A program made the translations under genes and the position numbers. DNA of 64,000 nucleotides from Salisaeta longa DSM 21114 (lineage in GTDB: Bacteria; Bacteroidota; Rhodothermia; Rhodothermales; Salinibacteraceae). The stretch is taken from positions 2,006,005 through 2,070,004 of the forward strand of contig NZ_ATTH01000001.1 of the NCBI RefSeq assembly GCF_000419585.1, given 5' to 3'. Under the pieces are notes generated by a model. It was not told the origin of the DNA, did no database searches, and was given only the letters and a program-made list of their open reading frames with translations. Positions 48,764 through 60,139 of the stretch are shown piece after piece (the first letter of the stretch is position 1; every line of letters begins with the position of its first letter).

Positions 48764-49102
48764 ATGCCTGAGCACCCACCCCTCATTCCCGATCATCTGC
48801 TTCCGCGTGTTGCGCAGCGCCTCAAAATTATTGGGGAGCCGGTGCGCCTGGAGCTGCTGAACCTGCTGCGCGTGCATGGCGAGCTGAGCGTACAGGCGCT
48901 TGTGGATGCCTCCGGCCACCGGCAGGCGAATGTGAGCAAGCACCTGGGCATCATGATGCGCGAAGGCCTCGTGGCCCGCCGGAAAGAGGGGGTGCAGGCG
49001 TTTTACTCGCTGGATGACCCCAGCCTGCCGGGCCTTTGCGTGCTAGTGACCAACCAACTGCGGCAGGAAACCGACGCCAACGTATCGCCCACACCTTCCT
49101 GA
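48764..49102 (+). CDS. ArsR-like winged-helix regulator without metal ligands
   Basis: A 112-residue HTH protein of the ArsR type: LKIIGEPVRLELLNLL in helix 1-2, VDASGHRQANVSKHLGIMM as the recognition region, and a wing EGLVARRKEGVQAFYSL. Neither the alpha-3 cysteine motif nor the alpha-5 Asp/His set is present, so it likely responds to something other than metal. It is the first gene of a five-gene unit that ends in a signalling module, four bases before the next gene. Confidence 0.85.
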   Translation: MPEHPPLIPDHLLPRVAQRLKIIGEPVRLELLNLLRVHGELSVQALVDASGHRQANVSKHLGIMMREGLVARRKEGVQAFYSLDDPSLPGLCVLVTNQLRQETDANVSPTPS

Positions 49103-49106
49103 TGCC

Positions 49107-49361
49107 ATGCGTACCGCCGACGCCCGAACGCGCGCGGCCCTTGGGGTGCTTGCGCTAAGCGGCGCACTGCTGCTCAACTACCCGTTGCTTTCACTCGTTA
49201 ACCGCCCGCTGTACGTAGGCGGTGTGCCACTGCTGTACGTTGCCCTCTTTGTCATCTGGGCGGCACTCATTGGCGGCACCGCCTACCTGCTGCGCAAGCC
49301 CCCGCCGTCGCGCGACGACACGCCGCCCGCTCGTTCTCATCGGCCGCCGCCCTCGCCGTGA
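49107..49361 (+). CDS. Small two-helix membrane protein preceding the symporter-kinase
   Basis: An 84-residue protein with two predicted membrane helices (about 12-30 and 42-62: LYVALFVIWAALIGGTAYLL) and a proline-rich basic tail. The middle reads LLNYPLLSLVNRPLYVGGVPLLYV, a pattern like small proteins encoded beside sodium-symporter/kinase fusions. It overlaps the next gene by four bases (GTGA), so translation is coupled; it may be a subunit or stabiliser of that transporter. Confidence 0.75.
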   Translation: MRTADARTRAALGVLALSGALLLNYPLLSLVNRPLYVGGVPLLYVALFVIWAALIGGTAYLLRKPPPSRDDTPPARSHRPPPSP

Positions 49362-52105
49362 CGCCTGCTCTTGTCATCGGTCTGGCTGTGGGCTACGTGG
49401 GGCTGCTGTTTGCAGTGGCCTACGGCGCCGACCGCCGCGCGCGCTCCGGGCGCAGCGTGGTCAGTCATCCCGCGGTGTATACGCTTTCGATGGCCGTGTA
49501 CTGCACCGGGTGGACTTTCTTCGGCAGCGTGGGCCGCGCGGCCTCCGGCGGGGTCGAGTTTCTCACCATCTACCTCGGCCCCACCCTCCTCGCGGTGGGC
49601 GGCTGGGTGATCTGGCGCAAAATGATTCGCATCAGCACCCACCAACGCCTCACCTCGATCGCCGACTTTCTGGGCGCGCGCTACGGCAAGAGCGCCCGCC
49701 TCGCCAGCCTGGCTACCGTGGTGGCGGTGGTGGGCGTGGTGCCCTACATCGCCCTTCAGCTGAAAGCGGTAGCGGCCGGCTATGCGGCCCTCACCCAATT
49801 TCCCCACACGCCCCCGGCAGCCCCCAACGAGCCCTTTTACTTCGACACGGCGTTTTACTGCGCGCTGGCGCTTGCGGCTTTCACCATCTTGTTTGGCACC
49901 CGCCACCTGGATGTCACCGAGCGCCACGAGGGCTTGGTGGCTGCTATCGCCTTCGAGTCGGTTGTAAAGCTGGTGGCGTTTGTGGCCGTCGGCGTGTTCG
50001 TGACGTTTGGGCTGTACGACGGCTTCGGGGCCCTCTTTGAAGCGGGCGCCGCGGTGCCCTCCATCCGGGCCCTCTACACCATGGGTGCCGAAACGACCTA
50101 CGGCGACTGGTTTTGGCTTACCGGTCTGGCGTTGCTTGCGGTGTTGCTGCTGCCGCGCCAGTTTCAGGTGACCGTGGTCGAAAACACCGACGCCGACCAC
50201 GTGCGCACCGCTGCCTGGGGCTTTCCGCTGTACCTGCTGGTCATTAACCTGTTTGTGCTGCCTATTGCGGTGGCGGGCCAGTTGGCGTTCGGGCCGGGTG
50301 CCAATGCCGATATGTTCGTGCTTACGCTTCCGCTGGCCGAAGGCCAAACGGCCCTGGCCTTGCTGGCTTTTATTGGCGGCCTCTCGGCGGCTACGGGCAT
50401 GGTCATCGTGGAGGCTACGGCCCTTAGCACCATGATCTGCAACGACTTGGTGCTGCCGCTGCTGCTGCGCGTGCCGGCGTTTCAGATGGCGCGGCGGCGG
50501 CGCCTCACCGGCGTCATTCTGGGCATCCGGCGCGTGGCCATCCTGGCGGTGTTGCTGCTGGGCTACCTGTACGTCCGCTCGGTGGTGGGCACGTACGCGC
50601 TCGTGTCGATTGGCCTCATCTCGTTTGCTGCGGTGGCGCAGCTGGCGCCCGCGATGCTGGGCGGATTGTTTTGGACCGGCGGCACGCGCTACGGGGCCTT
50701 GGCGGGCCTCGCGGTGGGCTTTGGGCTGTGGGGTTACACCCTGCCGCTGCCCACACTGGCTGAGGCGGGCTGGCTCCCCCTCTCGTTTATTACGGACGGC
50801 CCCTGGGGCGTTGCGCTCCTCAAGCCGTACGCGCTGCTCGGCCTCGATACGATGGGTCACGTGCCGCACGCGCTGTTCTGGAGCCTCGGCCTCAACGCGC
50901 TGCTGTACGTGAGCGTGTCGATTGCCACGCGGCCCTCGGTGATGGAGCGCACCCAAGCCGAACGCTTCGTGCATGTGTTCGACTATGCCTCCGATGCGGG
51001 GCGCGCGGCGTGGCGGGGCACCGCTGCCGTCGCCGAGCTGCGGCGGCTGCTCCGGCGCTACCTGGGCTGGCGCGAGGCCGACCGCGTGCTGCACGAGTAT
51101 GCCGACCGGCACGGCCTGGCGCTTCGTGACCTCGACGAAGCCGACGAGGCCCTCGTCCACTTTGCCGAGCGCGTGCTGGCTGGCGTGCTGGGGGCCTCCT
51201 CGGCCCGCGTGGTCATTGCCTCGGTGGTGCGCGAACAGCCCCTCCGCATGGAGGAGGTGATCGACCTGCTCGACGAAGCCCAGCAGATGGTGGCGTACAA
51301 CCGCGAGCTGCAGCAAAAGCGCCACGCCCTGGAGCAGGCCACGCGGAAGTTGCAAGAAGCCAACGCCGAGCTGCGCGCCATCGACCGCCTCAAGGATGAC
51401 TTTGTGGCCACCGTCACGCATGAGCTGCGCACCCCGCTCACGGCCATCCGCGCCATCAGCGAAATTATGCACACGGCCGAGACGCTTGCCCCTGCGCAGC
51501 GGCAGCAGTTTGCCCACACCATCCTCCGCGAAACAGAACGCCTGACGCGGCTCGTAAACCAGGTGCTCGACCTGCAACGCCTGGATGCCGACGCGCCCCT
51601 GCCGGCTACGGTTGTGGACCTGAACGAAATAACCGCCGACGCGCTCGACGCGATGCGCGAAACGTTTGCACGGCGCAACATTGCGTGTGAGGTGACGCGC
51701 CCCGTGCAGCCTACGCCCGTCACCGGCGATGCCGACCAGCTGACGCAGGTGGTGCTCAACCTCCTCTCGAACGCTGCCAAGTTTGCCGACGACACCGCAC
51801 CGCACGTGGCCCTCCACCTTCGCGCGACGGGCGAGCACATCCAACTCGCCGTTACCGATAATGGCCCCGGCTTGCACCCCGACGACCAGGACGCGATCTT
51901 CCAGAAATTCCGTCAGGTGGAGCGTCGCGCCGGCACCCACGCGGGCAGCGGGCTGGGGCTGGCTATCACCCGCCAGATTGTGCACCGCCACACCGGCGAC
52001 GTATGGGTGGAAAGCACGCCCGGCCACGGCGCTACGTTTGTGGTACGCCTCCCCCAAGCCGCGTCGCACCGCGCCCCGTCTTCTGCCTCCCCAAGCCCTG
52101 CTTGA
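49358..52105 (+). CDS. Sodium:solute symporter-histidine kinase fusion (CbrA-like)
   Basis: A 915-residue hybrid sensor. Residues 1 to about 520 form a sodium:solute symporter domain with some 13 helices. A STAC-like linker follows (DRVLHEYADRHGLALRDLDEADEAL…), then a coiled coil and a histidine kinase: DHp box FVATVTHELRTPLTAI with the phospho-acceptor His, N-box VVLNLLSNAAKF, G1 DNGPGL and G2 GSGLGLAI. This is the architecture of CbrA/CrbS, which sense nutrients such as histidine or acetate. Start codon is GTG, overlapping the upstream gene. Its cognate response regulator is probably the receiver encoded next. Confidence 0.93.
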   Translation: MTPALVIGLAVGYVGLLFAVAYGADRRARSGRSVVSHPAVYTLSMAVYCTGWTFFGSVGRAASGGVEFLTIYLGPTLLAVGGWVIWRKMIRISTHQRLTSIADFLGARYGKSARLASLATVVAVVGVVPYIALQLKAVAAGYAALTQFPHTPPAAPNEPFYFDTAFYCALALAAFTILFGTRHLDVTERHEGLVAAIAFESVVKLVAFVAVGVFVTFGLYDGFGALFEAGAAVPSIRALYTMGAETTYGDWFWLTGLALLAVLLLPRQFQVTVVENTDADHVRTAAWGFPLYLLVINLFVLPIAVAGQLAFGPGANADMFVLTLPLAEGQTALALLAFIGGLSAATGMVIVEATALSTMICNDLVLPLLLRVPAFQMARRRRLTGVILGIRRVAILAVLLLGYLYVRSVVGTYALVSIGLISFAAVAQLAPAMLGGLFWTGGTRYGALAGLAVGFGLWGYTLPLPTLAEAGWLPLSFITDGPWGVALLKPYALLGLDTMGHVPHALFWSLGLNALLYVSVSIATRPSVMERTQAERFVHVFDYASDAGRAAWRGTAAVAELRRLLRRYLGWREADRVLHEYADRHGLALRDLDEADEALVHFAERVLAGVLGASSARVVIASVVREQPLRMEEVIDLLDEAQQMVAYNRELQQKRHALEQATRKLQEANAELRAIDRLKDDFVATVTHELRTPLTAIRAISEIMHTAETLAPAQRQQFAHTILRETERLTRLVNQVLDLQRLDADAPLPATVVDLNEITADALDAMRETFARRNIACEVTRPVQPTPVTGDADQLTQVVLNLLSNAAKFADDTAPHVALHLRATGEHIQLAVTDNGPGLHPDDQDAIFQKFRQVERRAGTHAGSGLGLAITRQIVHRHTGDVWVESTPGHGATFVVRLPQAASHRAPSSASPSPA

Positions 52106-52108
52106 CCC

Positions 52109-52477
52109 ATGGCGTACGTTCTCATCGTTGACGACGAGCCCAGCATTGTTTTGCCGCTGGAATACCTGATGCAACAGCACGGCCACGAGACGCACGTGCT
52201 TGCCGACGGCGCAGCGGTGCTTCCGGCCCTTGAGGAACGCCTGCCCGACCTGGTGCTGCTGGACGTGATGCTGCCCAACCAGGACGGCTACGCGTTGTGC
52301 GAGGCCATCCGAGCGCGCGCGGCCTGGGACGACCTAAAGATTGTCATGCTCACCGTCAAAAGCCGCGCTGCCGACCGCGAAAAGGGACGGGCCCTGGGCG
52401 CAGACGCCTACATCACCAAACCATTCAGCGTGGAAACCGTCGTAGCCACCGTACAGGAACAGCTCCGCGCTGCCTAG
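52109..52477 (+). CDS. Single-domain response regulator receiver
   Basis: A 122-residue CheY-like domain with no output part. The acidic pair is in LIVDDEPS, the phosphorylated Asp in LVLLDVMLPNQDG, the Thr in IVMLTVKS and the Lys in YITKPFS. It begins three bases after the symporter-kinase and is the likely phosphate acceptor. With no DNA-binding domain it must act through a partner, possibly the kinase-like protein that follows. Confidence 0.93.
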   Translation: MAYVLIVDDEPSIVLPLEYLMQQHGHETHVLADGAAVLPALEERLPDLVLLDVMLPNQDGYALCEAIRARAAWDDLKIVMLTVKSRAADREKGRALGADAYITKPFSVETVVATVQEQLRAA

Positions 52478-52484
52478 CCGACGT

Positions 52485-53468
52485 ATGCCCGTGTCTGCCA
52501 CAAACGATGCCCTTATCGATGCGCTGCTTTCGGCCGTGCCGAGGCCCGCGCTGTTGTGCACGCCGGCCGGCGACGTCGTAGCGTGCAATGCCGGGGCCAA
52601 GCGCCTCTTGGCGGGAACGAATGCCGCCGGGCCGCCGGGTGCCAACGTGCTCGATGACTGGCCGAGCGACGCCCTGCGCCAGGCGCTGCACGCTGCGCCC
52701 GATGCTCCTCCAACGGTTGTTGCGCTGTCCGACGCATCGGCCGATGATCTTGGGGCGCTTGTTGTGCAGCCCGCGCCGCCTTATGTGCTGCTGAGCGCCG
52801 CCCCGGAGGCCGCGCCGCCCCGCACCTCGCGCGTGCTGCGCGACCTTATCGAAGCCATGCGCGAGCCGCTGGCTAGCGTGCGCGCTGCCGTGGAGACGAT
52901 GACCCACTTCCCGTCGATTGACACGGCCGCCGCCACCCAATTTCTGCAGATTATCGAGGAGCAAACGGTGCGGCTCAGCGACCAACTGGAGGCCGCGGTG
53001 TCGGCCTACGCCGCGCACTATCGCGCCAGCACGTACCTCCAGCCCATGAACCTGCAGGCCCTGGCCGACCTCGTCGCGTCGGCCGGAGCTCCCGCGCCCC
53101 ACGCCATCCATCGGGCCGACGATGCACGCGTTGTGGTTGCGGTGCACCCTTCGACCTTTCCGCCGCTCGTCTCGTTTCTTGTGCGCCGCGTGCGGCACGC
53201 AACGCAATGCCCGAAGGTAACCTTGCACATCGTTCCGCGCGAGGCGACTGTCGCGCTTGACCTTCGCTGGACGGGGCCCGCCATCACCACGGCCCGCCTG
53301 CAGCGCTGGCACGGCAGCCCGCTTCCCACCGGCGATACGCTCGTAGAGCTGACGGTGCAGGACGTGCTGGACGACCACGAAGCGCAGCTGTGGCCCACCG
53401 CAAACGCTTCTACCGCGGCCGTGCGCCTGCTGCTGCCCACCGAGCGCGTCGCCCCCTCGCACACGTAG
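52485..53468 (+). CDS. Degenerate histidine-kinase-like protein with PAS-like start
   Basis: A 327-residue protein. Residues about 8-60 look like a small PAS domain (IDALLSAVPRPALLCTPAGDVVACN). A DHp-like helix follows in LIEAMREPLASVRAAVETM, aligned with HELRTPLTAIRA but with Glu where the phospho-acceptor His belongs. The later part has the spacing of a HATPase domain, but the N-box Asn is replaced (FLVRRVRHA) and the DNGPGI motif is broken (WTGPAITT). It is probably a kinase-derived sensor or scaffold without activity. It starts seven bases after the receiver gene. Confidence 0.65.
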   Translation: MPVSATNDALIDALLSAVPRPALLCTPAGDVVACNAGAKRLLAGTNAAGPPGANVLDDWPSDALRQALHAAPDAPPTVVALSDASADDLGALVVQPAPPYVLLSAAPEAAPPRTSRVLRDLIEAMREPLASVRAAVETMTHFPSIDTAAATQFLQIIEEQTVRLSDQLEAAVSAYAAHYRASTYLQPMNLQALADLVASAGAPAPHAIHRADDARVVVAVHPSTFPPLVSFLVRRVRHATQCPKVTLHIVPREATVALDLRWTGPAITTARLQRWHGSPLPTGDTLVELTVQDVLDDHEAQLWPTANASTAAVRLLLPTERVAPSHT

Positions 53469-57297: not shown

Positions 57298-58467
57298 ATG
57301 AGCTCCCGTATACTTTCGCTTCAACTTCAAGGCTACCGGCCCTTTAGAGATCTTAGCGCTCAACTGGATAATCTGGAAGTTATCGCAGGAGCTAACGGAT
57401 CTGGCAAGTCGAGTTTATTTGAGTTTCTGCGATTCCTTCGAAACTCGATTTACAGCGATATTCCACCGGAGATTGTGGAAGGCTCAATCGGCCAGCGCAT
57501 CTTTCATGTCGCAGGGCCCGACCGATTTCGATGGACGGTGGAGATAGATACAGGGCATCCCGTTCCGCTTCACTATGAAGGAGAACTACTGGGGCCGGTA
57601 GGCAAAACACATGTAGCAAGTGAATCAGTGAAGACCGCCGAACCACTAGGGCAAACCCATGACGAGCCGTATATTTTCATGGACATTCGGGAGCGCGAAG
57701 GGGTCGTCAACGAAGCGGGCGATTTAAACAAGCAAGATATTTCGCTCAAGCGACCCAATCAGCTCGCTTTGAGCGCTATGACGAATCCGGCACTCGATAC
57801 GCTTTACAAACTTCGAGAATACATTCGCGGATGGCGGTTCTACAACGCCTTCAATATCAACAACCAGGCGATCCGGCGTTCGGTGCCCATTGAGCAAGAA
57901 CCGGTCTTGCATGAGGACGCAGGCAATTTGAGTTCGGTCCTGCATTATCTGATGACCGAACACCGCACAGCATTCGACGAACTGCAGCATCACTTGCGCA
58001 TGGCGGTGCCCGGCTTTAAAGGGCTCAACGTGAAGGCACGCGGCGGGCCTGGAGAGGTGATCGCCTTTTGGCAGGAAGGGAGCGTCGATGAAGAGCTTAG
58101 CCTAGCTGATCTCTCGGACGGAATTCTCCGACTTATCTGCTGGATCACTCTGTCGGTTCACCCCAGCCCTCCAACGCTCATTTGCATTGACGAACCGGGG
58201 CAAGGCGTACACCCACGCACCCTTCCGATCCTGGCCGGTCTCTTTCAGAAAGTGGCAGAACGCACGCAGGTCCTCTTGGCCACGCACAATTCGTACTTTT
58301 TAAAGCAGTTCGATATTGATCAGATCGCTGTTATGCGAAAGGAGGATGGGGGGGCACAATTCCTGAAACCGAAGAATTCGAAGGTGCTCATGTACAACCT
58401 CGAAGAGTTCGGCACGGAAGAGCTGGAAGCCATGCATCGGAGCGATGAATTGGAGCGTTTGGCATGA
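57298..58467 (+). CDS. AAA ATPase of the OLD/SMC-like (AAA_21) type
   Basis: A 389-residue ABC-type ATPase related to the ATPase domains of OLD nucleases and RecF/SMC proteins. Walker A is GANGSGKSS (31-39), a signature-like LSDG is at 272-275, Walker B LICIDEP at 294-300, and the switch His in ATH at 328-330. The middle (about 90-240) is a variable helical insert. There is no fused nuclease domain; instead the next gene, overlapping by four bases (ATGA), encodes a TOPRIM-like protein. ATPase plus separate TOPRIM is the layout of PARIS and some OLD-like defence pairs, so an anti-phage role is inferred. A hand-counted 60-base sample (57421-57480) is 45% GC against 63% in uvrA (56281-56340), which suggests horizontal gain. 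Confidence 0.85.
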   Translation: MSSRILSLQLQGYRPFRDLSAQLDNLEVIAGANGSGKSSLFEFLRFLRNSIYSDIPPEIVEGSIGQRIFHVAGPDRFRWTVEIDTGHPVPLHYEGELLGPVGKTHVASESVKTAEPLGQTHDEPYIFMDIREREGVVNEAGDLNKQDISLKRPNQLALSAMTNPALDTLYKLREYIRGWRFYNAFNINNQAIRRSVPIEQEPVLHEDAGNLSSVLHYLMTEHRTAFDELQHHLRMAVPGFKGLNVKARGGPGEVIAFWQEGSVDEELSLADLSDGILRLICWITLSVHPSPPTLICIDEPGQGVHPRTLPILAGLFQKVAERTQVLLATHNSYFLKQFDIDQIAVMRKEDGGAQFLKPKNSKVLMYNLEEFGTEELEAMHRSDELERLA

Positions 58468-59102
58468 ACGTTATCGTGTATGTGGAGGGCCCGTCGGATG
58501 CTAATGCCATGGAAGCGTTGCTAGCCCCTCTCATAAAAGAAAAATTGCGGCGGGGGATACATATCAAATTCTTTGGGGCCCCAACAGGACATAAGAAGAA
58601 ATCGGTTCTTCTCAAGGTGCCCGTCCGGGCGGTAAACATCCTGCGCAACAGGCCGAAAGCACGTGTGGTAGCCTTGCCTGACCTGTATCCCCCAAATGCA
58701 GGTTTTCCCCATGAAACTGTAGAGGAGCTTCGTGAAGGAATGCAGGAAACGTTTCGTGCCCACGTGCAGGAAAAAGGCCTTCAGGACGCCCGTCTGGGGC
58801 AGCGCTTCGAGGCGTTCTGTTTCAAGCACGATCTGGAGGCTCTTGTCCTTGCTGCTGAGAATTCACTCGGTGCACGACTTGGCACCGACTCGCTCCCTGT
58901 CTCTTGGCAGACACCTGTCGAAGACCAAAATCATGATAAACCGCCCAAGCGCATTGTGGAAGAGCTTTTCGAAGCGCACGGCACTCGCTACCGCGGCGCC
59001 ATTGATGCGCCACTTATTCTGTCGAGGGCCCGGTACGAGGACATCGTTGAGCAATGTCCACAGGGCTTTGGGCCATTCGTGGAGTTTCTCGAACGTCTGT
59101 GA
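58464..59102 (+). CDS. DUF4276 (TOPRIM-like) protein
   Basis: A 212-residue protein that matches DUF4276 in pattern: VYVEGPSDANAMEALL with Glu8 and Asp12 at the N terminus, ARVVALPDLYPPN with Asp73, and FKHDLEALVLA with His122 and Glu125. The Glu..Asp spacing and strand order are those of OLD-family TOPRIM nuclease domains, in which these acids hold Mg2+. Its start overlaps the ATPase stop by four bases, so the two proteins are made together. I infer it to be the nuclease or effector arm controlled by the ATPase; biochemical function is not established for the family. Confidence 0.82.
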   Translation: MNVIVYVEGPSDANAMEALLAPLIKEKLRRGIHIKFFGAPTGHKKKSVLLKVPVRAVNILRNRPKARVVALPDLYPPNAGFPHETVEELREGMQETFRAHVQEKGLQDARLGQRFEAFCFKHDLEALVLAAENSLGARLGTDSLPVSWQTPVEDQNHDKPPKRIVEELFEAHGTRYRGAIDAPLILSRARYEDIVEQCPQGFGPFVEFLERL

Positions 59103-59169: not shown

Positions 59170-59784
59170 CTACGTCTGCTTCTGCAGGATCTCCTGAACC
59201 GGCAAGGCCTCAAGGGTTGGCAGCGCCTCCACCGCAAGCGTATCGCCGCGCGTTGCACGCGTGATCGTGGTGTAGCGCCCCGCCTCGGGCCCGCGGGCCA
59301 CTTCCACCGTCTCGGCTGCTAGGTCGACGAGCCAGTACTCGGGGATGCCGGCGGCCGCGTAGCGCGGCCGCTTCTCCGTGCGGTCAAAGTCCGCACTTGT
59401 GTCGGCCACTTCAATGAGCAGCAGCACGTCGTCGGGGATGGGCGTGCGGTCTTGCGGCGCATCGGGGCGCAGCAGCACCAGATCGGGCTCCGGCTCGCTG
59501 TGTGGGGTCAGGCGCACGGGGTTCTGCACGCTAATTCGCGCTAGCGGTGCACCCGAGTGATAAAGGCGCCGGGCGAACAGTTCGTTGAGGCGGTTGACGC
59601 AGTGCAGATGCTTCGATCCGATCGGAGACATGGCGACGATGCGGCCGTCTAGCAGTTCGACGCGGCTATCTTCTGTTAGGATGCCAGCTGCAGCGAGGGC
59701 ATGGTATTCCTCTACCGTAAATGGGCGCTCTCGCTGCATCAAACGCTGCGACGGCGGACGCGGCCCTGTAGCGACGTTAGCCAT
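59170..59784 (-). CDS. Uma2-family (PD-(D/E)xK-like) protein
   Basis: A 204-residue Uma2 protein. Core motifs: FTVEEYHALAAAGIL, RVELLDGRIVAMSPIG, SEPEPDLVLLRP with the catalytic Asp, LLLIEVADTSADFD with the second acid, and RPRYAAAGIPEYWLVDL. It is closer to the common cyanobacterial form than the copy at 32.7 kb. The frame continues upstream to 59922, but the conserved part begins after ATG 59784. It is convergent with the ATPase/DUF4276 pair, 67 bases apart; no direct link is shown. Confidence 0.9.
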   Translation of the reverse strand: MANVATGPRPPSQRLMQRERPFTVEEYHALAAAGILTEDSRVELLDGRIVAMSPIGSKHLHCVNRLNELFARRLYHSGAPLARISVQNPVRLTPHSEPEPDLVLLRPDAPQDRTPIPDDVLLLIEVADTSADFDRTEKRPRYAAAGIPEYWLVDLAAETVEVARGPEAGRYTTITRATRGDTLAVEALPTLEALPVQEILQKQT

Positions 59785-60139
59785 ATGTCCTGCCCACACT
59801 TGAACCGAGGGTGTACGCGAACTTACACGCTTGAGGTACGCCCCTTCGACCGCAAGCGGTTCCGAGCGCCGCGGAAAGAGCCGCCCCTCCATCACGGGCG
59901 CGCGCTCACGTCGGTTTTTCAAACACAGCTTAATTTTTACACCGCAGCACGCGACAGGACCACGCGAGACTAAATATTTTGGGCGATTTATCGATTGGCG
60001 CTACAAAATACGGTGTAAGCGCTTTTATGCCCTAACAACTTGCACTACAAGTCCCTATCACATAGAATATATTTCGTAACGTGATCAATTAGACGTTTTT
60101 CTTTCGCCTGTTCGTCTCATACGCCAAAATAATGCTGGT
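59785..60139 (+). other. AT-rich region between the Uma2 gene and amtB
   Basis: About 355 bases of divergent promoter space, clearly richer in A and T than its surroundings from about 59930 to 60130. No reading frame is convincing. TGTAAGCGCTTTTA at 60014-60027 differs in one base from the first palindrome upstream of susC (48561) and may be a LacI-type operator for amtB. No clear NtrC or sigma-54 site was seen. Confidence 0.35.

Follow-up and report, generated by a model that had tools for sequence, protein, structure and literature searches.

Histidine kinase-like proteins that have lost catalysis and instead read the phosphorylation of a receiver are represented by essentially one well-studied case, DivL. 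In this protein the direction of kinase signalling is reversed, and the R553A substitution, at the third residue past the acceptor position, eliminates binding of DivK~P (PMC4211667). The authors of that study raised the question of how common such reversed signalling is in nature (PMC4211667). A second set of described systems comprises CbrA/CbrB and CrbS/CrbR (MxtR/ErdR), whose SLC5-STAC kinases are of the same symporter-kinase type as the one described here and are preceded by a small CbrX-like gene to which their translation is coupled (PMC13022988, PMC6591292), CbrX being the precedent for a small gene at a symporter-kinase locus (PMC13022988). CbrB and CrbR bind DNA, whereas in the locus we describe the kinase gene is followed by a bare receiver and then a pseudo-kinase.

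A pseudo-histidine kinase at the end of a symporter-kinase operon

The window, the whole 64,000-nucleotide stretch of Salisaeta longa DNA that was analysed, contains five genes in a tight run at 48764-53468, with gaps of 3-7 nt or a 4-nt overlap between them. These genes, together with two codons of the last one, are as follows.

48764..49102, + strand: ArsR/SmtB-type winged-helix regulator (NF033788, E = 3.8e-21), which opens the operon and is conserved in position
49107..49361, + strand: CbrX-like small protein of 84 aa with hydrophobic segments at residues 10-32 and 34-63, its gene sharing 4 nt with the start of the symporter-kinase gene
49358..52105, + strand: CbrA/CrbS-like symporter-histidine kinase (HisKA, E = 2.8e-18; HATPase_c, E = 1.9e-29), catalytic motifs intact
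52109..52477, + strand: single-domain response regulator (PF00072, E = 5.7e-25), receiver only, catalytic residues intact
52485..53468, + strand: pseudo-histidine kinase of 327 aa with an eroded PAS-like region, a pseudo-DHp (~113-182) and a pseudo-CA domain (~186-321), lacking TM segments and an exonuclease
52851..52853, + strand: codon of Glu123, at the phospho-acceptor His position by alignment
52860..52862, + strand: codon of Arg126 (His+3), kept family-wide and equivalent by alignment to DivL Arg553 (PMC4211667)

The ArsR-type regulator, which contains a single Cys, could be a DNA-binding output; its gene is part of the locus only in the Rhodothermales families f1, f3 and f10. Homologues of the small CbrX-like gene were found at 106 of the 111 symporter-kinase loci, and this small membrane protein is conserved across phyla, far more widely than in the described Pseudomonas cases. 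The symporter-kinase has many TM segments, with an SLC5-like transporter region (52-69% identical to that of relatives) fused to an active-type histidine kinase with intact HisKA and HATPase_c domains; the SLC5 label denotes likeness to CbrA and CrbS, as Pfam gave no SSF match.

The last gene, an ORF running from ATG to TAG that starts 7 nt past the receiver stop, was described in the initial annotation as a pseudo-histidine kinase in which the DHp His is replaced by Glu, the N-box Asn by Arg and DNGPGI by WTGPAI, and all three replacements are borne out. The H box reads LIEAMREPLAS, with Glu123 at the His position, compared with THELRTPLTA in the adjoining symporter-kinase. In the N box, NLLSNAAK has become RRVRHATQ, with the second Asn additionally changed to His, and WTGPAI occupies the G1 box where DNGPGL/I (DxGxG) is expected. 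GxGLGL is absent from the sequence, Pfam detected HisKA only below threshold (16.4 bits against a cutoff of 26.9), and no HATPase_c match was obtained with Pfam.

The same annotation held that PAS-like and helical scaffolds remain. For the helical kinase scaffold this agrees with an AlphaFold model built with 44 family sequences, which has a clear DHp hairpin (113-141 and 147-182) and a CA-like domain at pLDDT values mostly of ~90 or more, and with Foldseek, for which the top matches were HK853 (including HK853-RR468 complexes), WalK, EnvZ chimeras and DivL. Profile matches included HK853 and VicK, and the curated profiles nearest to the PAS-DHp-CA part were those of PhoR/WalK-type kinases, although here all catalytic motifs are lost. 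The PAS-like region can still be read, but it is eroded and was weakly modelled. Judged as a HisKA kinase, the protein has the DHp hairpin and the CA fold and lacks the acceptor His and the N and G1 ATP motifs.

Family-wide loss of catalytic residues and fusion to an exonuclease

An orthologue of the pseudo-kinase is encoded in 16 of the 60 genomes searched, the window genome included. The search for a shared gene order, suggested along with the initial annotation, revealed 15 relatives from the same order in which orthologues with the same replacements lie beside the same receiver/symporter-kinase pair wherever the contig permits, a recurrence far above what chance would give. The symporter-kinase and the pseudo-kinase co-occur in the same 15 of the 60 genomes, plus one in which the kinase is cut by a contig edge, and genomes of genus g8 have neither. 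All 16 aligned orthologues have Glu at the His position, an invariant Arg at +3, Arg-Ala-Ala at +10 to +12 and Glu-Thr at +14/+15.

When a profile of the Rhodothermales orthologues was run over ORFs near symporter-kinases from other phyla, it matched 46 proteins, mostly of ~720 aa and nearly all full-length (E = 1e-68 to 1e-29); further searches brought the family to 115 ORFs. Full-length members consist of two TM helices, a HAMP-like linker, PAS, pseudo-DHp, pseudo-CA and a C-terminal DEDDh exonuclease (PF00929, E = 1e-35 to 1e-39). The window protein belongs to this family in a soluble, shortened form: it has the homologous PAS-pDHp-pCA core and neither the TM-HAMP N-terminus nor the exonuclease C-terminus. 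The family was detected in 19 of 369 genomes of Gammaproteobacteria (in the GTDB sense), 7 of 289 of Alphaproteobacteria, 13 of 297 of Desulfobacterota and 5 of 40 of Calditrichota, as well as in Bacteroidota.

A complete set is present on plasmid 1 of the laboratory strain Paracoccus denitrificans PD1222 (L197:3876-10776, PDEN_RS25395-25415), where five overlapping genes encode, in this order, a DUF294 nucleotidyltransferase, a small protein, the symporter-kinase, the receiver and the pseudo-kinase-exonuclease. Cupriavidus necator has at least the small gene, the symporter-kinase, the receiver and the pseudo-kinase-exonuclease. The fusion protein is annotated only as an exonuclease domain protein in PD1222, and in Paracoccus ferrooxidans it bears the name DNA polymerase III epsilon. 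In the open-access literature we found no description of a histidine kinase-like core joined to an exonuclease, of its regular occurrence beside a bare receiver and a symporter-kinase or of the paralogue split reported below. While DivL-like working would follow a known principle, this architecture, pairing and split are thus apparently undescribed.

Relatives retaining the His and the ATP residues, as would be expected for local decay of the window copy, were looked for and not found. The acceptor His is present in 0 of the 107 homologues whose DHp could be aligned, this position being occupied by Glu (68), Arg (23), Asp (5) or other residues (11), and the G1-box Asp is replaced by Trp in 96 of the 107. 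At the same loci the His motif is kept in 99 of 104 symporter-kinases and DEDDh in ~90 of 94 exonuclease domains. These intact neighbours argue that the kinase core alone is disarmed across the family, with new residues, Trp262 and Arg126, conserved in place. In close pairs of orthologues from relatives dN/dS was 0.07-0.29, the window gene itself lying on a long branch, and the pseudo-kinase orthologues are under purifying selection. In most close pairs the DHp evolved more slowly than the rest of the protein, as in L025/L026 (dN 0.032 vs 0.154 elsewhere). Local decay is ruled out by the family-wide loss together with the low dN/dS in relatives. That the gene is a decaying kinase without any function is hardly credible: the window copy does diverge fast, with PAS eroded and TM segments and nuclease lost, but low dN/dS in relatives, recurrence of the same replacements across phyla, the newly conserved Trp and Arg and the retained gene order all speak against it.

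Two further assignments were rejected. Matches from the Bacteroidota family f27 were considered as possible His-bearing ancestors, and L142, the one clearly read, has the SHELRTPL motif of an ordinary PAS kinase. ChpT/Spo0B-type phosphotransferases have a histidine kinase-like fold with an ATP-incompetent, degenerate CA domain, as here, and keep a phospho-His. By that description the pseudo-kinase family is set apart from them, and a ChpT-like phospho-His phosphotransferase (HPt/ChpT) is ruled out because the phosphorylatable His is missing.

Association with a single-domain receiver

The initial annotation also pointed to an adjoining receiver without an output domain; PF00072 is indeed the only domain at 52109..52477, and this organization extends to the family. 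Among the 101 members that have a DHp and for which upstream sequence was available, 85 follow directly on a receiver gene on the same strand, usually near a symporter-kinase and a CbrX-like gene. All 85 adjacent receivers are single-domain, carry the phospho-Asp and Lys and extend for no more than 26 residues past the domain. The adjacency holds in at least four phyla, and it persists where the symporter-kinase is several kb off (L038, L049). Arg is found at His+3 in 83 of the 84 receiver-paired members. Canonical kinases often carry Arg or Lys at this position, so the conservation of Arg126 is support for receiver binding, not proof.

The family resembles DivL in having a HisKA-type DHp-CA core without the acceptor His, PAS upstream and Arg at acceptor+3; its probable partner, judged from gene order, is likewise a single-domain receiver. 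The acceptor position holds Tyr in DivL, which can support ATP-dependent autokinase activity once Tyr550 is changed to His, and Glu, Arg or Asp in the family members, which also lack the G1 Asp. DivL is not nuclease-fused, and its target is CckA. Beyond the histidine kinase fold, no close sequence relation to DivL was found, and orthology was rejected given Glu123 instead of Tyr and the G1 Asp missing from the ATP site.

Where no receiver adjoins, the DHp is often degenerate or deleted while PAS is intact. The key residues of helix 1 scored 0.64 in members without a receiver vs 0.87 in members with one, the corresponding PAS values being 0.83 and 0.79. The association between DHp decay and receiver absence gave p = 0.003 in a Mann-Whitney test that ignores phylogeny, and among phylogenetically independent pairs 2-3 were for and 0 against it, too few for significance; the association is suggestive only. 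Members L172-L175, L165-L167 and L180 have no adjoining receiver and a degenerated DHp motif with PAS and exonuclease kept, and possibly are receiver-independent nucleases.

We also weighed whether the DHp-like domain might have nothing to do with receivers and serve, for instance, as a linker for dimerisation, with the receiver linkage due to operon hitch-hiking. Consistent with this, mutual information between receiver and pseudo-DHp columns gave no interface signal across 84 pairs, and the DHp motif is kept in 7 of the 16 members without an adjacent receiver (L096, L080, L150, L151, L156, L190 and L024, the last with a divergent gene order). The covariation result is uninformative, however, because the interface columns hardly vary, and a pure linker needs no conserved surface residues at +3, +7, +10, +12 and +14 and would leave the adjacency across phyla unaccounted for. 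We regard this explanation as quite improbable.

Nor is the pseudo-kinase likely to be a dedicated receiver phosphatase, a kinase-dead core that only dephosphorylates receiver~P, even though a DHp of histidine kinase fold lies beside the receiver and the operon encodes no other dedicated phosphatase. The HisKA phosphatase motif consists of an acidic residue at His+1 and Thr or Asn at His+4. This motif is not kept in the family, where +1 is mostly Gly (57/107) and +4 is Ala, Gly, Ser, Arg or Glu, making such an activity improbable.

A stronger competitor, if still an unlikely one, is that the pseudo-kinase acts allosterically on the symporter-kinase. Its DHp would pair or compete with that of the kinase and so tune kinase activity, and the receiver would be a ligand or sink common to both proteins. 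In length the DHp hairpin equals that of the adjoining kinase, its residue pattern is similar, and the two genes co-occur and are linked in operons. But the pseudo-kinase is linked more tightly to the receiver than to the kinase, and the full-length members sit in the membrane and carry a HAMP-PAS input and a nuclease output of their own, as would better suit a separate protein acting downstream.

A proposed signalling path and its separable output

Given the lost catalytic residues, the retention behind a phosphorylatable receiver and the nuclease-fused kin, the pseudo-kinase probably senses the receiver rather than phosphorylating it. The reading we favour, with moderate confidence, is that a dead histidine kinase core has been kept as a docking module for the upstream receiver and works as a DivL-like sensor of receiver~P. 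From the intact residues and the gene order, the symporter-kinase would sense or transport a small nutrient, autophosphorylate and phosphorylate the single-domain receiver. Receiver~P might then dock on the pseudo-DHp hairpin of a dimeric pseudo-kinase, as DivK~P does on DivL, and docking would alter the conformation of the pseudo-kinase, a change relayed to an output. In the full-length form this output may be the C-terminal DEDDh 3'-5' exonuclease carried on the same membrane-anchored chain; the domain is present, and its regulation is the predicted part.

The initial annotation proposed that the pseudo-kinase itself is the output partner reading the receiver's phosphorylation. The reading function has gained strong circumstantial support from sequence, but the family has a nuclease as its output domain, and the window copy no longer carries it. 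In the window lineage a soluble PAS-pDHp-pCA adaptor would remain, and since both nuclease and membrane anchor are gone, it would have to act through another protein. Speculative candidates are the symporter-kinase, the ArsR repressor and a stand-alone RNase_T elsewhere in the genome.

Duplicated copies in some relatives bear on how these parts can be divided. Two paralogues per locus are present in genus g9 (L025, L026) and family f3 (L027-L029, L185), and the split is also given for g11. In g9 and f3, the receiver-adjacent paralogue is soluble and keeps the pseudo-DHp with the nuclease absent, and the other, adjoining and divergent from the ArsR gene, keeps TM, HAMP, PAS, CA-like domain and nuclease but has either no DHp or a low-complexity linker in its place. 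The pattern, seen in two Rhodothermales lineages, resembles complementary loss following a duplication and suggests that the nuclease can be separated from the DHp function. Only the DHp copy is present in the window genome and in several relatives; the tree is compatible, with weak support, with a single origin of the shortened form. A search of the window genome for the lost exonuclease half returned only generic DnaQ-like matches (~39%) and, next to a DUF294 gene, a stand-alone RNase_T of divergent sequence.

More tentatively, we suggest a new kind of signalling in which the receiver directly controls a nuclease through the pseudo-kinase, the path running from nutrient transporter-kinase to receiver to dead core to DEDDh exonuclease, so that the output would be nucleic-acid trimming, not transcription, and the Rhodothermales copy would be the receiver-reading half left after the paralogue split. 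If sensing of the receiver is correct, the family would be a second, independent example of a receiver-reading pseudo-kinase, spread over at least four phyla and with a built-in candidate output enzyme, and would give a role to the many SLC5-type kinases that occur together with a bare receiver.

The joint occurrence of a DUF294/CBS-type enzyme, an RNase_T exonuclease and an SLC5-type kinase has a parallel in PP_0354/PP_0353 of Pseudomonas putida. We take PP_0354, described as CBS domain-containing, to be a DUF294 protein. This CBS-domain gene and the RNase_T gene are both under the control of MxtR/ErdR, an SLC5-type kinase system, and growth on pyruvate requires PP_0353 (PMC9927547). The P. 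putida exonuclease is separate and transcriptionally controlled, whereas in the full-length family form it is fused to the pseudo-kinase. Away from the operon, the window genome (L205:8240-10810) and genome G003 (L206:6806-9405) each encode a cNMP-CBS-DUF294 nucleotidyltransferase directly followed by a stand-alone RNase_T exonuclease, a pair of the PP_0354/PP_0353 kind. Collectively, the PD1222 operon, PP_0354/PP_0353 and these two pairs indicate that exonuclease and nucleotidyltransferase are, as judged from gene content, recurrent companions of such nutrient-sensing kinases.

Elsewhere in the window, an AAA_21 ATPase gene followed by an overlapping DUF4276 gene (57298-59102) is a candidate anti-phage pair by its PADLOC match to HEC-01A/HEC-01B (E = 4e-54 and 1e-11) and adjoins a Uma2-family gene (59170-59922).
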